A DNA stretch of 59,673 bases from an uncultured Bacteroidota bacterium (GTDB lineage Bacteria > Bacteroidota > Bacteroidia > JABEUT01): assembly GCA_903916255.1 (NCBI GenBank), contig CAIWVW010000109.1:1-59673 (forward strand). The letters are read 5' to 3'. The translations under genes and the position numbers were made by a program. Shown piece after piece: positions 9,882 to 48,595 of this stretch. Below the pieces are notes generated by a model. That model saw only the letters and a list, made by a program, of their open reading frames with translations. It was not told the DNA's origin and did not search any database. Each line of letters starts with the position of its first letter. Within the stretch, counting starts at the first letter, position 1.

Positions 9882-9924
9882 GAAAGAGGAAGGGGTTTGA
9901 ATAATAAGACAAAGATATGATATA

Positions 9925-10057
9925 GTTGTCAGTGGTCAGTTGTCAAGTATTGTAGCTTATAACTTTGAATACATTCAAATACCATTTTGACTAATGATAT
10001 TTACTGCCAACATCTGACAACTGACAACTGACATCTGACTACTGAATACTGACAACT
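9925..10057. repeat. 7-bp-period inverted repeat element (TGACAAC type)
   Basis: Left arm GTTGTCA-GTGGTCA-GTTGTCA (9925-9945) and right arm of six heptads TGACAAC/TGACATC/TGACTAC (10015-10056) are reverse complements with about 70 bp between them. The element fills most of the 212-bp gap between the glycosyltransferase and nif3-like genes, which diverge from it. Related heptad arrays occur at 18284 and 20168-20338. Confidence 0.85.
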
Positions 10058-10093
10058 ATTTTGTAATTTCGGCTTTCAATAAATTCCATTACC

Positions 10094-16029: not shown

Positions 16030-16041
16030 TTTCCCTAACAG

Positions 16042-16139
16042 CTATGAATTATAAGTTATGGCCAATAGCTTGTATGTTGTATTTATTTATGCTTATACAT
16101 GCAAATAACTTATAACCCATAACGTATAACTATCTAATT
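16042..16139. repeat. 14-unit 7-bp-period inverted repeat element (ATAACTT type)
   Basis: 98 bp that divide exactly into fourteen heptads without a phase slip. The left part (CTATGAA-TTATAAG-TTATGGC, 16042-16062) is roughly the reverse complement of the right part (ATAACTT-ATAACCC-ATAACGT-ATAACTA, 16105-16132). It fills nearly the whole gap between the sixA-like gene and ppk1. Confidence 0.85.
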
Positions 16140-16144
16140 AGTTT

Positions 16145-16152
16145 TACCTTTG
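16145..16152 (+). promoter_or_regulatory. Candidate -7 box (TACCTTTG) of ppk1
   Basis: TACCTTTG fits TAnnTTTG and lies 11 bp before the ppk1 ATG. It directly follows the heptad repeat element, so ppk1 may have its own promoter rather than depend on read-through from the upstream gene. No good -33 TTG is visible. Confidence 0.45.
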
Positions 16153-16163
16153 AACTTCCGTAT

Positions 16164-18236
16164 ATGAAGACAAAATTTATACCAAGAGATATTAGTTGGT
16201 TATCCTTTAATGAAAGAGTATTTCAGGAAGCAACAGATAAGACCGTGCCGCTGATTGAACGCATGAAGTTTCTGGGAATATTTTCCAGTAATCTCGATGA
16301 GTTCTTCCGGGTAAGGGTTGCTACGCTTACCCGCCTTGCCGAAGTAAAGAAGGGTGTAAGCGAATTTACCGGCGAAGACCCTGCCAAACTGCTTAAGCAA
16401 ATACATAAAAAGGTATTGTTTCAGCAGCAAGAGGTGGAGAATGTGTACAACGCCATTGTAAAAGAACTGGCTACTCATAAGGTTTACATTGTAGATGAAA
16501 AGCAACTGAACAAAGAGCAAAGCGCTTTTGTGCTGAAATACTTTCACGAGAATGTGTTGCCAACGCTGGCTCCGGTAATGATTGAAACGGCTCCTAACTT
16601 TCCATACCTGAATGATAAGTCCATTTATTTTGCGGTAAAGCTATATCGCAAAGGCGAAGTGAAAAAGGGCATGAAGTATGCGCTTATACATATTCCAACC
16701 GATGTGCTGCCGCGTTTTGTGGTACTTCCCCGCCAGGGCGAAAGCAGGTATATAATTTTACTGGATAACGTAATTCGTTTTTGCCTGAATGAAGTTTTTG
16801 CAGTATTGGAAGTAGATAAAGCGGAAGCCTATACCATTAAACTTACCCGCGATGCTGAATTGGACATTGACCAGGATTTATCGAAGAGTATTGTAGAGAA
16901 AATTGAAAAGAGCGTAAAAGACCGCAAGAAAGGAGAACCCGTGCGGCTTGTTTACGACCGCGATATGCCCAAGGACCTTCTTCAGTTTATGATGAAGAAG
17001 ATAAAAATGAAACGGGCCCTTACCCTTATTCCCGGCGGCAGATACCATAACTTCCGCGATTTTATTAATTTCCCGAATGTAGGTAATAAAGAGCTTTTAT
17101 ATCATTACCCCACACCACTTCCGCATCCTGAACTAAGCAAGGCAAAAAGCCTTTTCAGTGTTATTAAAAAGAAAGATATTTTGTTGTGCTACCCCTACCA
17201 GTCTTTCAACCACGTAATCGACCTGCTGCGCGAAGCCAGCATCGACCCGAAGGTTACGTCCATCAAGATGACATTGTACAGGTTGGCAAAAAAATCGAGC
17301 ATAGCATACATTCTTGCCAATGCCTTGAAGAATGGAAAATCGGTCACTGTTGTAGTAGAGTTGCAAGCCCGTTTTGATGAAGAAGCCAATATCTTTTGGG
17401 CAAACCAATTGAAAGAGGAAGGCGCGGAGGTCATTTACGGTATATCCGGATTAAAAGTGCACTCGAAACTTCTTTTGATTTCCCGCGAGGAAGGAAACAC
17501 TACTGTTACATACGGCCATATAGGCACCGGAAACTTTAATGAAGATACGGCCAAGCTATACAGCGATTGCACCGTGCTTACCGCCGATAAAAGAATTACC
17601 GGAGAGATGGCTAAAGTGTTCAATTTTTACAGCAACAACTTTAAAATTGGAAGTTACGACCACCTGCTTGTTTCGCCCTTTTTTATGCGGAAGAAATTTA
17701 TTAAATACATTAATAAAGAAATTAAAAATGCCGAAGCCGGTGCGGAGGCCTACATCACCCTTAAATTAAATTCGCTGGTAGATACCGAAATGATAAAAAA
17801 ACTTTACCAGGCAAGTGAAGCGGGTGTTAAAATAAAATTGATTTTACGTTCCAACTGCTCCCTTATTCCGGGTATAAAAGGAATGAGCGAAAACATTGAA
17901 GCCATCAGCATTGTGGATAAATACCTTGAACACTCCCGGATATTATTGTTCTGCAACGGCGGCGAAGAGCGCATCTATCTCACATCGGCCGACTGGATGT
18001 ACCGCAACCTTGACTTGCGAAATGAAATTGCAATTCCGATTTATGATAAAAAGATTCGGGAAAAACTGAAAAAGATTTTAAATATCAACCTGCACGATAA
18101 CACCAAAGCCCGCATCCTTGACGAGAAGCAGGACAATAAATATAAAACGGGAGCGCCCGGTGCAAAAAAAGTGAGGGCGCAGGATGCTATTTACAATTAC
18201 TTTAAGGGCCGGTTATTAGCGCATAAAGTTCAATAA
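16164..18236 (+). CDS. ppk1: Polyphosphate kinase 1
   Basis: 690 residues, the normal Ppk1 length. It reversibly makes long-chain polyphosphate from ATP. The four-domain family is recognisable throughout: the N-terminal RDISWLSFNERVFQEA and FLGIFSSNLDEFFRVRV motifs, YPYQSFNHVIDLLREA, and the two catalytic phospholipase D-like domains. H433 in GLKVHSKLLLI is the expected autophosphorylated histidine and H590 in LEHSRILLFCNGG the second conserved histidine, matching the E. coli residues almost position for position. It lies between a SixA-like phosphatase and a Ppx/GppA phosphatase, with a 7-bp-period repeat element in each gap. Together they form a polyphosphate synthesis and breakdown cluster. 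Confidence 0.97.
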   Translation: MKTKFIPRDISWLSFNERVFQEATDKTVPLIERMKFLGIFSSNLDEFFRVRVATLTRLAEVKKGVSEFTGEDPAKLLKQIHKKVLFQQQEVENVYNAIVKELATHKVYIVDEKQLNKEQSAFVLKYFHENVLPTLAPVMIETAPNFPYLNDKSIYFAVKLYRKGEVKKGMKYALIHIPTDVLPRFVVLPRQGESRYIILLDNVIRFCLNEVFAVLEVDKAEAYTIKLTRDAELDIDQDLSKSIVEKIEKSVKDRKKGEPVRLVYDRDMPKDLLQFMMKKIKMKRALTLIPGGRYHNFRDFINFPNVGNKELLYHYPTPLPHPELSKAKSLFSVIKKKDILLCYPYQSFNHVIDLLREASIDPKVTSIKMTLYRLAKKSSIAYILANALKNGKSVTVVVELQARFDEEANIFWANQLKEEGAEVIYGISGLKVHSKLLLISREEGNTTVTYGHIGTGNFNEDTAKLYSDCTVLTADKRITGEMAKVFNFYSNNFKIGSYDHLLVSPFFMRKKFIKYINKEIKNAEAGAEAYITLKLNSLVDTEMIKKLYQASEAGVKIKLILRSNCSLIPGIKGMSENIEAISIVDKYLEHSRILLFCNGGEERIYLTSADWMYRNLDLRNEIAIPIYDKKIREKLKKILNINLHDNTKARILDEKQDNKYKTGAPGAKKVRAQDAIYNYFKGRLLAHKVQ

Positions 18237-18237
18237 T

Positions 18238-18310
18238 GAAAAGCGAAAAGTGATAAATGAAAAATATAAACGCTCCTGTAATCTGATAACTGACTACTGA
18301 CCACTGTACC
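18238..18310. repeat. 7-bp-period repeat element in the ppk1-ppx gap
   Basis: The whole 74-bp gap is built of heptads: GAAAAGC-GAAAAGT-GATAAAT-GAAAAAT from 18238, then TGATAAC-TGACTAC-TGACCAC at 18284-18304, ending just before the ppx ATG at 18311. Word types match those at 20273-20338, including the GAAAAAT and TGACTAC classes in the same order. Confidence 0.8.
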
Positions 18311-19218: not shown

Positions 19219-19440
19219 CATTGTGGGGGTTGACCCGTGTGTCAACCCTTTAAATAGATGTGTCAATATTGATTTCCTAATGTCCGTGCGGGTTGACACA
19301 CGGGTCAACCCCTACGGGGCGTGCATTAAATATGCCCATATATGCCGTTATTTTTGACACATGGTTATTGGAATGCATGGCGGGTTGACACACGGTTATT
19401 GGAATGTCCGTGCGGGTTGACACATGGGTCAACCCCTACC
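19219..19440. repeat. Cluster of short palindromic repeats (GGGTTGACACACGGGTCAACCC type)
   Basis: In the 234-bp gap between ppx and the convergent 19442-20353 gene, at least three near-palindromes of GGGTTGAC...GTCAACCC occur (about 19228-19250, 19289-19311 and 19414-19436), plus a fourth half-copy followed by GGTTATTGGAATG, a word present twice (19362 and 19395). Each palindrome could fold into a stem of eight or more pairs. Sequences of this GTAGGGGTTGACC class are widespread intergenic repeats in environmental bacteria. The word GCCGTTATTTTTGA (19344-19357) ties this cluster to 15435-15448. Confidence 0.8.
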
Positions 19441-19441
19441 G

Positions 19442-20353
19442 TTATTTTATATCATATACCCTCACCGAATCTCTGTATTTTTCAAACAGCAAATTCTTTT
19501 CAATGCGTACTTCGCCCGCAAGGGTATCAGGTGCCCGGGTGGCATCTTCCATAATGGTTTTTAAATGGAAGCTGTACACTTTGTTTTTCTTTACATAAAA
19601 CAAATCATCGCCCCGCACCTCGAAGCTGGTGAGGCCTGTAATGGGTATGGTTTTGTAATAGGTTCCGTAGGAGTCGAACACCAATATGCCCTGCACCGAA
19701 TCGTTCATGTAAACAAGGTTATTATACTCCATTAAAAAGTTAGGGTTAAGGGGTATTTCCAGCGCCTGTGCCAGATTGCTCGTCTTTTGAGTAATGTTCA
19801 GGTTTACATCCATGCGCACCAGTTGAAAGTTCTGCGCATCGTAAAGCCATACGCCGTTTTCGTGCGAGGTGCAGGCCAGTGTGGTAAGCGGAAAACCTGC
19901 ATCGGCAGGGTTGAAAGGATTGCCATTTACACTTAAGGTATTATCGAGCAGCACCACTTCCGGAAAGTCTTTAAAAAACACCAGCAGTTTCAGGGGGTCG
20001 TTTGCATCTACATACGATATTGCCCCATAGTTTTTATCGCTGTAGTTAAACAGCATGTTTCCCCTGGCATCATATTTCTTAATAGAATTGCCCCTGTACA
20101 CATACACGTTTTGCAGGTTATCGGTAGTGAATGAGCCGCCCTCGGAAGGGATTTTGGATAATAAGGTGTAAGCAGTGGTTAGTGGTAAGTGGTAAGTGGT
20201 CAGTGGTATGCGGTCAGTCCCATATAAAGTATTGTTATTGCGGCTTTTAAAAGCAAGGAAAAGTATGGAGGCACCAAAAATGAAAAATGATAAAGGCAAG
20301 CCTTTCCACTTACCACTGACTACTGACCACTGACTACTCTTTTTAAACAACAT
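19442..20353 (-). CDS. Membrane-anchored propeller-like protein of unknown function, N terminus invaded by a heptad repeat
   Basis: 303 residues. The ATG overlaps the end of the GH3 gene by 11 bp (ATGTTGTTTAA), so it should be translationally coupled to it. Residues 21-36 (LSFFIFGASILFLAFK) form one membrane segment or signal anchor. Residues 64-303 contain strands such as LQNVYVYRGNSIKKYDARGNMLF, GVWLYDAQNFQLVRMD and VQGILVFDSYGTYYKTIPI, suggesting a beta-propeller, outside the membrane by inference. Unusually, residues 6-16 (SSQWSVVSGKW) and 46-62 (TDRIPLTTYHLPLTTAY) are translated from the two arms of a 7-bp-period repeat element. I do not recognise the family. Confidence 0.75.
   Translation of the reverse strand: MLFKKSSQWSVVSGKWKGLPLSFFIFGASILFLAFKSRNNNTLYGTDRIPLTTYHLPLTTAYTLLSKIPSEGGSFTTDNLQNVYVYRGNSIKKYDARGNMLFNYSDKNYGAISYVDANDPLKLLVFFKDFPEVVLLDNTLSVNGNPFNPADAGFPLTTLACTSHENGVWLYDAQNFQLVRMDVNLNITQKTSNLAQALEIPLNPNFLMEYNNLVYMNDSVQGILVFDSYGTYYKTIPITGLTSFEVRGDDLFYVKKNKVYSFHLKTIMEDATRAPDTLAGEVRIEKNLLFEKYRDSVRVYDIK
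20168..20338. repeat. 7-bp-period inverted repeat element inside a coding sequence
   Basis: Left arm AGCAGTG-GTTAGTG-GTAAGTG-GTAAGTG-GTCAGTG (20171-20205, continuing to about 20219) and right arm TTTCCAC-TTACCAC-TGACTAC-TGACCAC-TGACTAC (20303-20337) are reverse complements. Between them lie the codons for a membrane segment, and GAAAAAT-GATAAAG heptads precede the right arm. The whole element reads in frame within the 19442-20353 gene without a stop. Confidence 0.85.
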
Positions 20354-29846: not shown

Positions 29847-29901
29847 CTTGTAGGGTGAAGGATATTATACAAAGGTCTAAAAGTTTTGTTACATAAAAGA
29901 C

Positions 29902-29966
29902 ATGAAAATTGAAAAGAAACAGCCGTTTCATCACTTTCTACTTTCCACTTTTAACTCGCAACTCAT
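29902..29966. repeat. 7-bp-period repeat element (CACTTTC type)
   Basis: TGAAAAT-TGAAAAG (29903-29916) and CACTTTC-TACTTTC-CACTTTT-AACTCGC-AACTCAT (29932-29966) are in the same 7-bp register within two bases and are partly complementary. The element lies in the divergent gap between the OmpA-family gene and the DinB-like gene. Confidence 0.7.
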
Positions 29967-30573: not shown

Positions 30574-30601
30574 TATAAACTATGAGCTATAAGATATATC
30601 C
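30574..30601. repeat. Four heptads spanning the start of the TPR gene
   Basis: TATAAAC-TATGAGC-TATAAGA-TATATCC, exact 7-bp register. The second heptad contains the ATG at 30582, so the first seven codons or so of the TPR protein are encoded by repeat sequence if that ATG is used. Confidence 0.65.
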
Positions 30602-31631
30602 GAGTCGTATGGGTTGGTTTATATCTTTTAGTTTATTTTTAATAAAGGCTAATGTATTTGCACAAAGCGATACACTTGCAGTATCGCAATTTAAAAATGG
30701 CGATTACACCCATGCTATTAATACCTGTAAAGAATTACTAAAAGCTAATAAAAATGATACGCTTGCGTATTTCTATCGCGGGCTTTCGGAAGAAGCTACG
30801 AAGGATTATTCGGGTGCACGGAGTGATTTTAAAAAGATAAGCGAATTGCTGCCTAAAGATGCTGAAATATATTTTAAATTAGGCGTGCTTTGGTCGGAGA
30901 CCGAAGATTATTACCATTCCATAAAAGAGTTTACAAAAGCAATCGGCCTTGATTCTTCCTATGCGGTGGCCTATAACAATAGAGGGAATTCGGAATATAT
31001 GGTTGGTGATGCAAAAAGCGCGCTAAAGGATTTTACGGTTGCAGCGCAAAAGGATTCCACCTATCCTGACCCTTATTATAACCGGGGACACCTGAGAATG
31101 GTATTGGGCGATTTTAAAGATGCAATTACTGATTTCACACTCGATTTAAGATTGAGCCCCGATGATGCCGATGGCTGGTTTTGCCGGGGGCAATGTTATG
31201 ATAATAGTAAAGATACCATTGCTGCATTAAATGATTACAGCAATACTATCCAAATTGATTCAACCTATATGGATGCTTATTATTTCAGAGGTTGCGACAG
31301 GCTGAAAATAAATGATGCCCGAGGTGCAGCAAATGATTTCACATTTTTAATTATGGATGATTCAACAGAATTTTTGCCATATGAGCTGCGTGGAATTGCA
31401 AATGATTCGTTGTGTAATTACAAAGAAGCTATAATCGATTTTACCAAAGCAATCAAACTTAATGACGAAGATGGTCAATCATACCTTGGACGAGGATTTG
31501 CCTATATAAAAACAGGTGATAAAGAAAAAGCTTGCGATGATTTCAATTCAGCTGCTTACTATGAAATAAGCGGCGCGAACGAATATATCAGCCAATATTG
31601 CCGGAGGAAAGTGCATGTTTACTGGAGGTAG
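30582..31631 (+). CDS. Secreted TPR-repeat protein
   Basis: 349 residues. After a signal peptide ending near VFAQ come about eight tetratricopeptide repeats (AYFYRGLSEEATKDYSGARSDFKKI, IYFKLGVLWSETEDYYHSIKEFTKAIGLD, AYNNRGNSEYMVGDAKSALKDFTVAA and so on), ending with the characteristic GRGFAYIKTGDKEKACDDFNSAA. TPR repeats bind partner proteins; here in the periplasm or at the surface. Two starts are possible: ATG 30582, which lies in a heptad repeat and adds MSYKIYPSR, or ATG 30609 (MGWFISFSLFLIKANVFAQ). The first supplies the positive charges a signal peptide needs, so I keep it, with moderate confidence. Confidence 0.85.
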   Translation: MSYKIYPSRMGWFISFSLFLIKANVFAQSDTLAVSQFKNGDYTHAINTCKELLKANKNDTLAYFYRGLSEEATKDYSGARSDFKKISELLPKDAEIYFKLGVLWSETEDYYHSIKEFTKAIGLDSSYAVAYNNRGNSEYMVGDAKSALKDFTVAAQKDSTYPDPYYNRGHLRMVLGDFKDAITDFTLDLRLSPDDADGWFCRGQCYDNSKDTIAALNDYSNTIQIDSTYMDAYYFRGCDRLKINDARGAANDFTFLIMDDSTEFLPYELRGIANDSLCNYKEAIIDFTKAIKLNDEDGQSYLGRGFAYIKTGDKEKACDDFNSAAYYEISGANEYISQYCRRKVHVYWR

Positions 31632-43690: not shown

Positions 43691-44194
43691 TTACCTTGCA
43701 TCATGTTTGGTGGTTTCTGTTTTTTTAAAACGGACAGTGCACCTGGAATCTATTTTTGGTATTACAATGCAATTATTATTAAAATAGAGCATAGTGCATC
43801 CATCGTGCAGAAATACGGTCACCTGGTAAATGACAAGGGTTCCTGCCATTTTTACTGTTCTTATATACTTTGCGTTGCATCCTGCTGTTTTGGTGGGGAA
43901 ATATAATAATGTTTGTTTAGCGAAGTCAATATCAGGCAAAGGGTGGCATGCGTTACCAATAAACCTGTTGAATTCAGATTGTGAATTTATTACTTCTGTT
44001 TTGGGTTGTATTTTTGTGGTGTTGCAGATGAGTTCAATGCTCTGAATTTTATCAGGTGTAAGCACAATTGTATCTACCTTGCTCGTATCACGAACTCCTG
44101 CAACCGCCGGAGTAGCAATTAAAATAATAACAAAGGAGGATATAAGTTTTGCAGCCATTTTTAAAAACGTATATCTCATAACGTATATATCCAT
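43691..44194 (-). CDS. Cysteine-containing secreted protein of unknown function between two ABC transporter genes
   Basis: 167 residues. The ATG shares a base with the ATPase stop (TAATG), so translation is coupled. A signal peptide (KMAAKLISSFVIILIATPAVAG) starts about 12 residues in; the residues before it, MDIYVMRYTFL, are encoded by a heptad repeat (44167-44194). The mature part has a segment FNRFIGNACHPLPDIDFAKQTLLYFPTKTAGC and later HDGCTMLYFNNNCIVIPKIDSRCTVRF, with six cysteines. The spacing loosely recalls PrcB-like domains, but I would not assign it. An alternative start is ATG 44179 or 44158. Confidence 0.75.
   Translation of the reverse strand: MDIYVMRYTFLKMAAKLISSFVIILIATPAVAGVRDTSKVDTIVLTPDKIQSIELICNTTKIQPKTEVINSQSEFNRFIGNACHPLPDIDFAKQTLLYFPTKTAGCNAKYIRTVKMAGTLVIYQVTVFLHDGCTMLYFNNNCIVIPKIDSRCTVRFKKTETTKHDAR
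44167..44194. repeat. Four heptads at the ABC ATPase stop / secreted-protein start
   Basis: On the plus strand ACGTATA-TCTCATA-ACGTATA-TATCCAT, in exact 7-bp register. On the minus strand it provides the first codons of the 43691-44194 gene. The word ATAACGTATA is shared with the element at 16042-16139. Confidence 0.65.
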
Positions 44195-48505: not shown

Positions 48506-48595
48506 AGTTCATAAAGTTCATAAAATTTTTAAAGTTCTTAAAGTAAAAAGCGTCCAAAGACTTTATAAACTTTATGAACTTTACAAACTTTTAGC
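48506..48595. repeat. Ten-unit 9-bp-period inverted repeat element
   Basis: 90 bp that divide exactly into ten 9-mers: AGTTCATAA twice, AATTTTTAA, AGTTCTTAA, two diverged units, then ACTTTATAA, ACTTTATGA, ACTTTACAA, ACTTTTAGC. Left and right arms are reverse complements. It fills the gap from the GT4 start to the moxR stop codon and overlaps that stop. Confidence 0.85.

Follow-up and report, generated by a model that had tools for sequence, protein, structure and literature searches.

Strand-polar 7-bp hairpin arrays in the intergenic DNA of an uncultured Bacteroidota bacterium

Intergenic arrays that keep a 7-bp step while their heptamer words vary raise the question of what is retained at such a site: the word, the period, or the structure. 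The window analyzed here, a stretch of 59,673 nucleotides, is contig 109 of a 3.74-Mb draft genome in 149 contigs (G000). A first-pass annotation of this window had reported fourteen heptads with no phase slip at 16042-16139, together with arrays of other words in the same register elsewhere. The named arrays were checked by in-register reading, Tandem Repeats Finder, a lag-identity scan and an inverted-repeat search, and P values for lag 7 were obtained against base shuffles. The features are as follows.

9924..9945, + strand: left arm AGTTGTC AGTGGTC AGTTGTC; lag-7 matches 13/15; 83% inverted to 10008-10036
10008..10057, + strand: right arm of ACTGACA/ACTGACT/ACTGAAT heptads, upstream of a DUF34/NIF3 gene; lag-7 34/43
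16030..16163, + strand: gap separating the polyphosphate kinase gene from a His_Phos_1 gene; G000, G002 and G007 carry a hairpin here
16043..16063, + strand: left (G/purine) arm of the element at 16042-16139, AGCTATG AATTATA AGTTATG type; lag-7 8/14, P = 0.013; 88% inverted to 16105-16121
16101..16132, + strand: right (C) arm of the same element, ATAACTT ATAACCC ATAACGT ATAACTA; lag-7 16/25, P = 0.0003
18235..18265, + strand: left G/A-rich array AATGAAA AGCGAAA AGTGATA AATGAAA; lag-7 18/24
18283..18307, + strand: right array ATAACTG ACTACTG ACCACTG, stopping 3 nt short of the start codon of ppx
20173..20218, + strand: left arm AGTGGTA/AGTGGTC; lag-7 30/39; 82-88% inverted to 20302-20338
20302..20338, + strand: right arm ACTTACC ACTGACT ACTGACC ACTGACT; lag-7 25/30; falls within an N-terminal extension of ORF 19442-20353 that is doubtful
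29901..29921, + strand: degenerate left G/A-rich units CATGAAA ATTGAAA AGAAACA, read from the sequence
29928..29966, + strand: right array ACTTTCT ACTTTCC ACTTTTA ACTCGCA in a divergent gap; lag-7 20/32
30574..30601, + strand: weak period-7 stretch and doubtful member, over the start of TPR ORF 30582-31631 and within coding sequence; lag-7 14/21
48506..48591, + strand: sister hairpin stepping at 9 bp (AAAGTTCAT / ATGAACTTT), polarity as in the heptad hairpins; scored by Tandem Repeats Finder as period 9 over 48506-48544 and 48560-48591

Period 7 is clear in three of these arrays, for which Tandem Repeats Finder and the lag scan agree: 9924-9945/10008-10057 (lag-7 identity 0.87/0.79), 18235-18265/18283-18307 (0.75/0.78) and 20173-20218/20302-20338 (0.77/0.83), all with P ≤ 0.0003. 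The array at 29928-29966 (0.62, P ≤ 0.0003), also picked up by both methods, is good and ranks below these three. Across 16042-16139, 45/91 lag-7 matches were counted, compared with 27.6 expected (0/5000 shuffles), and the signal comes mostly from the right arm (0.64), the left arm being weak (0.57). In the middle, 16064-16100, period 7 is not significant (P = 0.09); the enrichment of the interval thus stands, whereas the unbroken run of fourteen heptads was overstated. The inverted-repeat search paired 16049-16076 with 16102-16129 (71% complementary) and 16043-16059 with 16105-16121 (88%). The element is two arms around a loop, genuine but among the more degenerate arrays. The other arrays that had been listed at 9925-10057, 18238-18310, 20168-20338 and 29902-29966 hold up, as do the reverse-complementary arms noted for several arrays. 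The stretch at 30574-30601 is periodic when taken alone (0.67), yet it overlaps the start of an ORF, and at 44167-44194 period 7 is absent (lag-7 identity 0.38, P = 0.21). No Rfam match was obtained in the window from 9500 to 31000.

Two observations concern the neighborhood of these arrays. The N-terminus of ORF 19442-20353 consists of translated heptads, and most homologs align only from residue ~50-60; judged from these alignments, its true start is probably near 20173. Downstream of ppx, a 31-bp tandem repeat (TTGACACATGG...) occurs at 19354-19427 and at 19235/19290, with inverted copies.

The arrays had been taken for a dispersed family, and the genome bears this out. In an unbiased sample of G000 (335 kb, made up of 20 contig starts and the window, with 30.7 kb of intergenic DNA), 35 intergenic period-7 runs were found, compared with 0.70 in dinucleotide-preserving shuffles; genes here were called with a crude finder, and the genomes are draft MAGs. 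The same sample gave 2 runs at lag 6, 5 at lag 8, 9 at lag 9 and, as a harmonic, 19 at lag 14. The excess at lag 9 is partly due to the 9-bp sister family at 48506-48591. The genome contains 46 copies of ACTGACNACTGAC and none of its reversed control. By extrapolation from the 35 independent loci per 335 kb, this genome would hold a few hundred array loci. The heptad families ACTGACC, AGTTATG, AACTATG, AATTAGT, AGTGAAA, GATAAGA, AGCTCTT and AGCTATC recur at unlinked loci; clustering by heptad profile showed a small excess (nearest-neighbor similarity 0.770 vs. 0.733), and unit order was more informative. An array of three ACTGACN units is present in 14/198 genomes of the class. In other Bacteroidota, in KSB1 and in Calditrichia, the ppk loci often show period 7 in other words: 44 arrays were counted at lag 7, and 0-3 at lags 5, 6, 10, 11 and 13. 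The statistics rest on the 335-kb sample and on loci chosen for containing ACTGACN, among them those richest in this word; the hairpins counted include orthologs and paralogs (one gap in three genomes; L053/L061), so the counts are not fully independent. These limits should not overturn the polarity or the periodicity, the counts being large enough.

Repeats outside the heptad class were also observed. The 9-bp hairpin family of window positions 48506-48591 recurs, likewise with its G-rich arm to the left, at L005 590-670, L019 2665-2780, L039 1460-1530 and L036 1571-1631. A dispersed palindromic repeat around CGAAGCAATC, which is neither heptameric nor polar, is found at L006 724, L014 153, L033 1989 and L035 1397 and 3652. 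The palindrome CCCGATAGCTATCGGG lies in or adjoining heptad arrays of G007 (L089 ~8570) and at L214 ~8480.

The usual unit of the heptad class is an inverted pair, i.e., a hairpin, and each pair has its own word (e.g., AGTGGTC, AGTTATG, AGTGAAA, AATTAGT). Typically, two arms of about three to five degenerate heptads each enclose an unrelated loop, for a module of ~60-130 bp overall; many arrays are without a clear partner arm. On either strand the G/purine-rich arm comes first (5′) and the C-rich arm second (3′): among 46 pairs, G exceeds C in the 5′ arm of 44, one pair is opposite and one is tied (44/45 non-tied). Within the same intergenic DNA, G-left pairs outnumber their opposites 26 to 0 among heptad pairs, whereas non-periodic inverted repeats are unbiased (18 vs. 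25), and in other lineages the G-left polarity is 8:0. Because an inverted repeat reads alike on both strands, this polarity cannot stem from gene direction; it would point to an agent acting on one strand 5′ to 3′. The C-rich strand also tends to read out of the gap, both near starts (45:9) and near stops (32:14), and the same outward rule is seen in other Bacteroidota and allies taken together (22:7). Arrays occur in divergent, tandem and convergent gaps alike, hence no single RNA role fits. When folded as single-stranded DNA, most hairpins tested fold strongly (z of −3.2 to −8.2), and the element at 16042-16139 folds weakly (z = −1.9); 20173-20310 gave no fold, the folded stretch having omitted most of the right arm.

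Comparison with the gaps of relatives revealed arrays present or absent within conserved neighborhoods. The array in the gap 9882-10093 is absent in G002 and G003, and that at 29928-29966 is absent in G002, G003 and G007. In the gap 16030-16163, clearer AGTTATG hairpins occur in G002 and G007, and none in G003, G008, G004 or G006; the spot of the left arm carries AGTTATG/AATTATA heptads in both G002 and G007, and the right arm has a near-perfect counterpart in G002, ATAACTTATAACTCATAACTCATAAC. At 18237-18310, the spot filled by ACTGACC heptads in G000 holds ATTTACA heptads in G007, and in G002 the two genes overlap directly (TAATG, no gap). Among 78 orthologous gaps of G000 and G002, both genomes carry an array at 8, compared with 2.5 expected (P = 2×10−4, Fisher's exact test). 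Where only G000 carries an array, its gaps were ~52-63 nt longer than their counterparts in a first gap sample; a second sample was small and mixed, its only two such gaps differing by +29 and −112. Most orthologous gaps are arrayless and many arrays have no counterpart, and therefore no single module is essential.

At some gaps the word is replaced and the hairpin is kept. In the gap between the DUF2795 and mfd genes (assigned by Pfam), G000 has AGTAAAA/AGTTTAA arms, G002 has AGTTATG arms and G003 has a short AGCTAGT/AGCC hairpin; all three share the flanks CATA...C and TTTAATATTCG, so that three unrelated words occupy the same boundaries in three species, and they fold as RNA with z of −5.1, −8.4 and −3.1, respectively. 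G000 carries AATTAGT in the thioredoxin (trxA) gap where G002 carries AATTACG (fold z of −6.4 and −5.2, respectively), and the word family changes in the atpD/atpC gap as well. In the gap that follows the gene for cytochrome oxidase subunit IV, the 9-bp hairpin of G000 at L036 1571-1631 faces a 7-bp hairpin in G002 (L052 1614-1700), with DNA fold z of −3.2 and −6.5. The hairpin thus outlasts the word at these gaps, although such replacements are few (four to five sites). It had been proposed that the period persists while the word changes and that the period itself is selected; the former agrees with the orthologous gaps, whereas the period by itself is not what lasts best: several of these gaps keep the hairpin as the word changes, and in one of them the period changes too (9 vs. 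7 bp).

A different kind of gap was noted at L044 4945-5021 and L047 5002-5083. This single-array gap is nearly identical in G000 and G002, whose neighboring DNA is usually only 70-80% identical, and the near-identity may reflect recent transfer or RNA constraint.

The order of units within arrays indicates how they change. At least three consecutive units are common to 43 array pairs, compared with 10.7 (SD 3.7) expected after shuffling of unit order. A 32-mer of the CTCTTAG family in G000 has an exact copy at a G002 locus that is not its ortholog and near-identical copies at further loci, and near-exact 30-34-mers are common to non-orthologous loci. Since unit order is shared by unlinked loci, this indicates copying of stretches longer than 20 nt. 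The copying does not run simply between the two arms of an element: the best match of a left arm is its own right arm in only 30% of 76 elements, and in two elements (L029 2231, L047 4466) the arms belong to different families, which led us to reject arm-to-arm homogenization as the sole mechanism.

If the arrays grew by slippage, identical heptads would be expected side by side. In the ACTGNNN arrays of this genus, however, identical neighbors make up 8/167 pairs, compared with 20.5 expected when order is shuffled within each array (0/5000 as low). The depletion argues against slippage as the main current process in the genus, and against slipped-strand growth as its present driver, one of the two causes first suggested for the period. 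Plausibly, identical neighbors are lost through slippage deletion or through a slip of hairpin register.

We therefore come to a reading in which we place middling confidence: a REP-like hairpin module that turns over fast and in which copying rewrites the arms while the stem-loop persists. The elements would form a genus-wide class of intergenic hairpin modules with rapid turnover, whose arms spread and are renewed as other arrays donate copied stretches of more than 20 nt, either by REP-like dispersal or by template switching at a folded single strand. The 7-bp step would be a by-product of arm making rather than a protein reading frame, and a process running 5′ to 3′ on one strand would account for the same polarity on both strands. 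Identical neighbors may vanish since they allow arm slippage. The stem-loop that persists at a site is most likely a tolerated or mildly useful intercistronic or UTR RNA hairpin, by analogy with what has been proposed for REP/BIME.

Three other explanations, which overlap in part and whose weights are rough, bear on the same data. One is plain slippage of the polymerase, favoring steps of 7 nt: microsatellites would grow neutrally and then diverge by point mutation, and inverted pairs would be by-products; the idea of a 7-nt step reportedly originated with Mrazek et al. in 2007 (cited in PMC4692102 and PMC4679880). Identical neighbors are in excess in arrays of other lineages (66 vs. 52.3), long near-perfect arrays exist (L137 8118-8244; G015, G066, G097), 8- and 9-bp periods are found as well, and period 7 is dominant in many unrelated bacteria (PMC4679880). 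All of this fits slippage, which nevertheless runs against the depletion of identical neighbors in this genus and the unit order common to unlinked loci, and offers no reason for a fixed hairpin polarity; we regard it as rather unlikely. Somewhat better placed, if still doubtful, is a non-autonomous mobile element of REPIN or MITE type, its enzyme recognizing the polar hairpin and its word families being successive subfamilies. Dispersed families, insertion-like gaps and the fixed polarity are as expected for such an element; by eye, elements tend to begin with AG and end with CT, and the direct repeat ATGAAA flanks the ppk/ppx insertion (18236 on). A general target duplication was not found, however, ATGAAA being confined to the ppk/ppx site and none being clear at another gap. 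Loops are unrelated and variable in length even within one family, and replacement at identical boundaries would demand repeated exact insertion. The mobility first suggested gains some support from multi-heptad stretches common to unlinked loci and from insertion-like gaps, with no transposase linked: an array lies within ~1.5 kb at only 1/7 of the Y1 transposase (PF01797) loci of the genome, and linkage to RAYT/Y1 was rejected. Internal sequence shared as in MITEs was sought within families, and the only common loop, that of L053/L061, lies in similarity that extends into both flanks and thus belongs to a segmental duplication, so a MITE with a conserved loop was rejected as well.

The arrays could also be selected cis elements, either sites for heptad-reading DNA- or RNA-binding proteins (of Csp/S1 type in the case of RNA, as proposed by MacGregor 2015) or a translation-initiation signal. 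Upstream of starts the C-rich strand is the sense strand in the 45:9 ratio given above, like TAACTGA in Beggiatoaceae (PMC4679880), and arrays often stop a few nucleotides short of the start codon (18307 vs. 18311). Yet arrays near stops and in convergent gaps, where no start exists, obey the outward rule too, and a start-codon signal acting alone was therefore rejected; moreover, words differ between orthologous gaps, and most orthologs are without an array. A selected cis element is accordingly improbable. G-quadruplexes do not explain the arrays either, as none of 119 arrays contains four GGG or CCC runs.

The kind of repeat is already known, namely heptameric intergenic repeats, tandem at 7 bp and dispersed. 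The STRR heptamers of Calothrix and other cyanobacteria, reportedly described by Mazel in 1990 (cited in PMC4692102), are said to be intergenic 7-bp tandem repeats in which one genome uses several words, as in the arrays here; we know of no polarity or word replacement in them. Heptamer arrays are on record in five Bacteroidetes as well as in Beggiatoaceae and cyanobacteria (PMC4679880), in Xanthomonas and Nostoc (PMC4692102) and in Geobacter (PMC2700814), so the first-pass view of an undescribed form does not hold. In the first three of these groups, the arrays are of exact TAACTGA and often lie immediately 5′ of start codons, and the corresponding gaps of relatives are without arrays (MacGregor 2015, PMC4679880). 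Family 1 here (ATAACTG/ACTGACN) is a variant word with the same orientation upstream of start codons and a similarly patchy distribution among genomes of the class, and ATAACTG units, as at 18283-18307, and ACTGATA units are present, in arrays of mixed words. The Beggiatoa repeats are exact and direct, a single set in that genome being indirect (inverted), and related heptamers are rare there, whereas inverted pairs dominate here and the units are heterogeneous. The heptamers of Xanthomonas and Nostoc (GGGAATC / GGGGA(C/T)T) are 7-bp repeats, mostly intergenic, numbering hundreds per genome, often in four units; they differ between close species, and their function there is unknown (Rehm et al. 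2015, PMC4692102). Xanthomonas has 70-75 convergent inverted pairs per genome, the G-rich strand being non-coding upstream and coding downstream, which resembles both the convergent inverted pairs (44:1 polarity) and the ORF orientation (C-rich strand outward) seen here (PMC4692102). In those genomes, however, there is one G4-forming word per genome, whereas many non-G4 words are found here, and hairpins with different words sit in one orthologous gap. In Geobacter metallireducens, 49 dispersed elements each consist of four heptads (GGACCGG), and a further class, with 16 members of five heptads (MTYCTGA), is drawn as strand-switching pairs; the words differ from those here and are read there as regulator sites (PMC2700814). 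REP/BIME/REPIN elements are likewise small, extragenic, palindromic, dispersed and polar, occur as singlets and inverted doublets and possibly form mRNA hairpins, but they carry GTAG or CGTC tags, and their fixed consensus contains no heptads (PMC3733652), whereas the present elements have heptads and no RAYT linkage. By eye, AGTAG occurs in some arms of the ACTGACC family and is absent in other families.

One polarity over many non-G4 words, word replacement with the hairpin kept, and avoidance of identical neighbors appear to be new; we did not find them described for Beggiatoaceae, cyanobacteria, Xanthomonas or Nostoc, nor in the part of the Geobacter source drawn on. Reports of heptamer repeats come independently from several phyla, each with its own guess (G-quadruplex, translation regulator, regulator site, slippage). 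A single polarity rule over many unrelated non-G4 words, matching the orientation in Xanthomonas and Beggiatoa, makes those guesses unlikely as a general cause. Word swapping and one-way polarity bear on the origin of heptamer repeats, an origin that simple strain comparison can test through neighbor avoidance and the replacement of words at fixed sites. A broader and more speculative reading, which we regard as rather unlikely, is that inheritance acts on the secondary structure and on a strand-polar register of 7 bp, the primary sequence being replaced wholesale through genome-wide single-strand-templated copying, that the same process lies behind the heptamers of Xanthomonas, cyanobacteria, Beggiatoaceae, Geobacter and Bacteroidota, and that G-quadruplexes are incidental.

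Two further loci deserve mention. At L009 5396-5650, a heptad hairpin makes up the entire 85-nt spacer between two tRNA-Leu genes, and in G002 the two conserved tRNA-like segments are ~2.9 kb apart. At L031 3452-5553, a gene matching DUF2586 (PF10758) is followed by one encoding a 141-aa protein, very conserved and with no hit in Pfam, and heptad hairpins lie in three gaps of what is perhaps a contractile tail locus.
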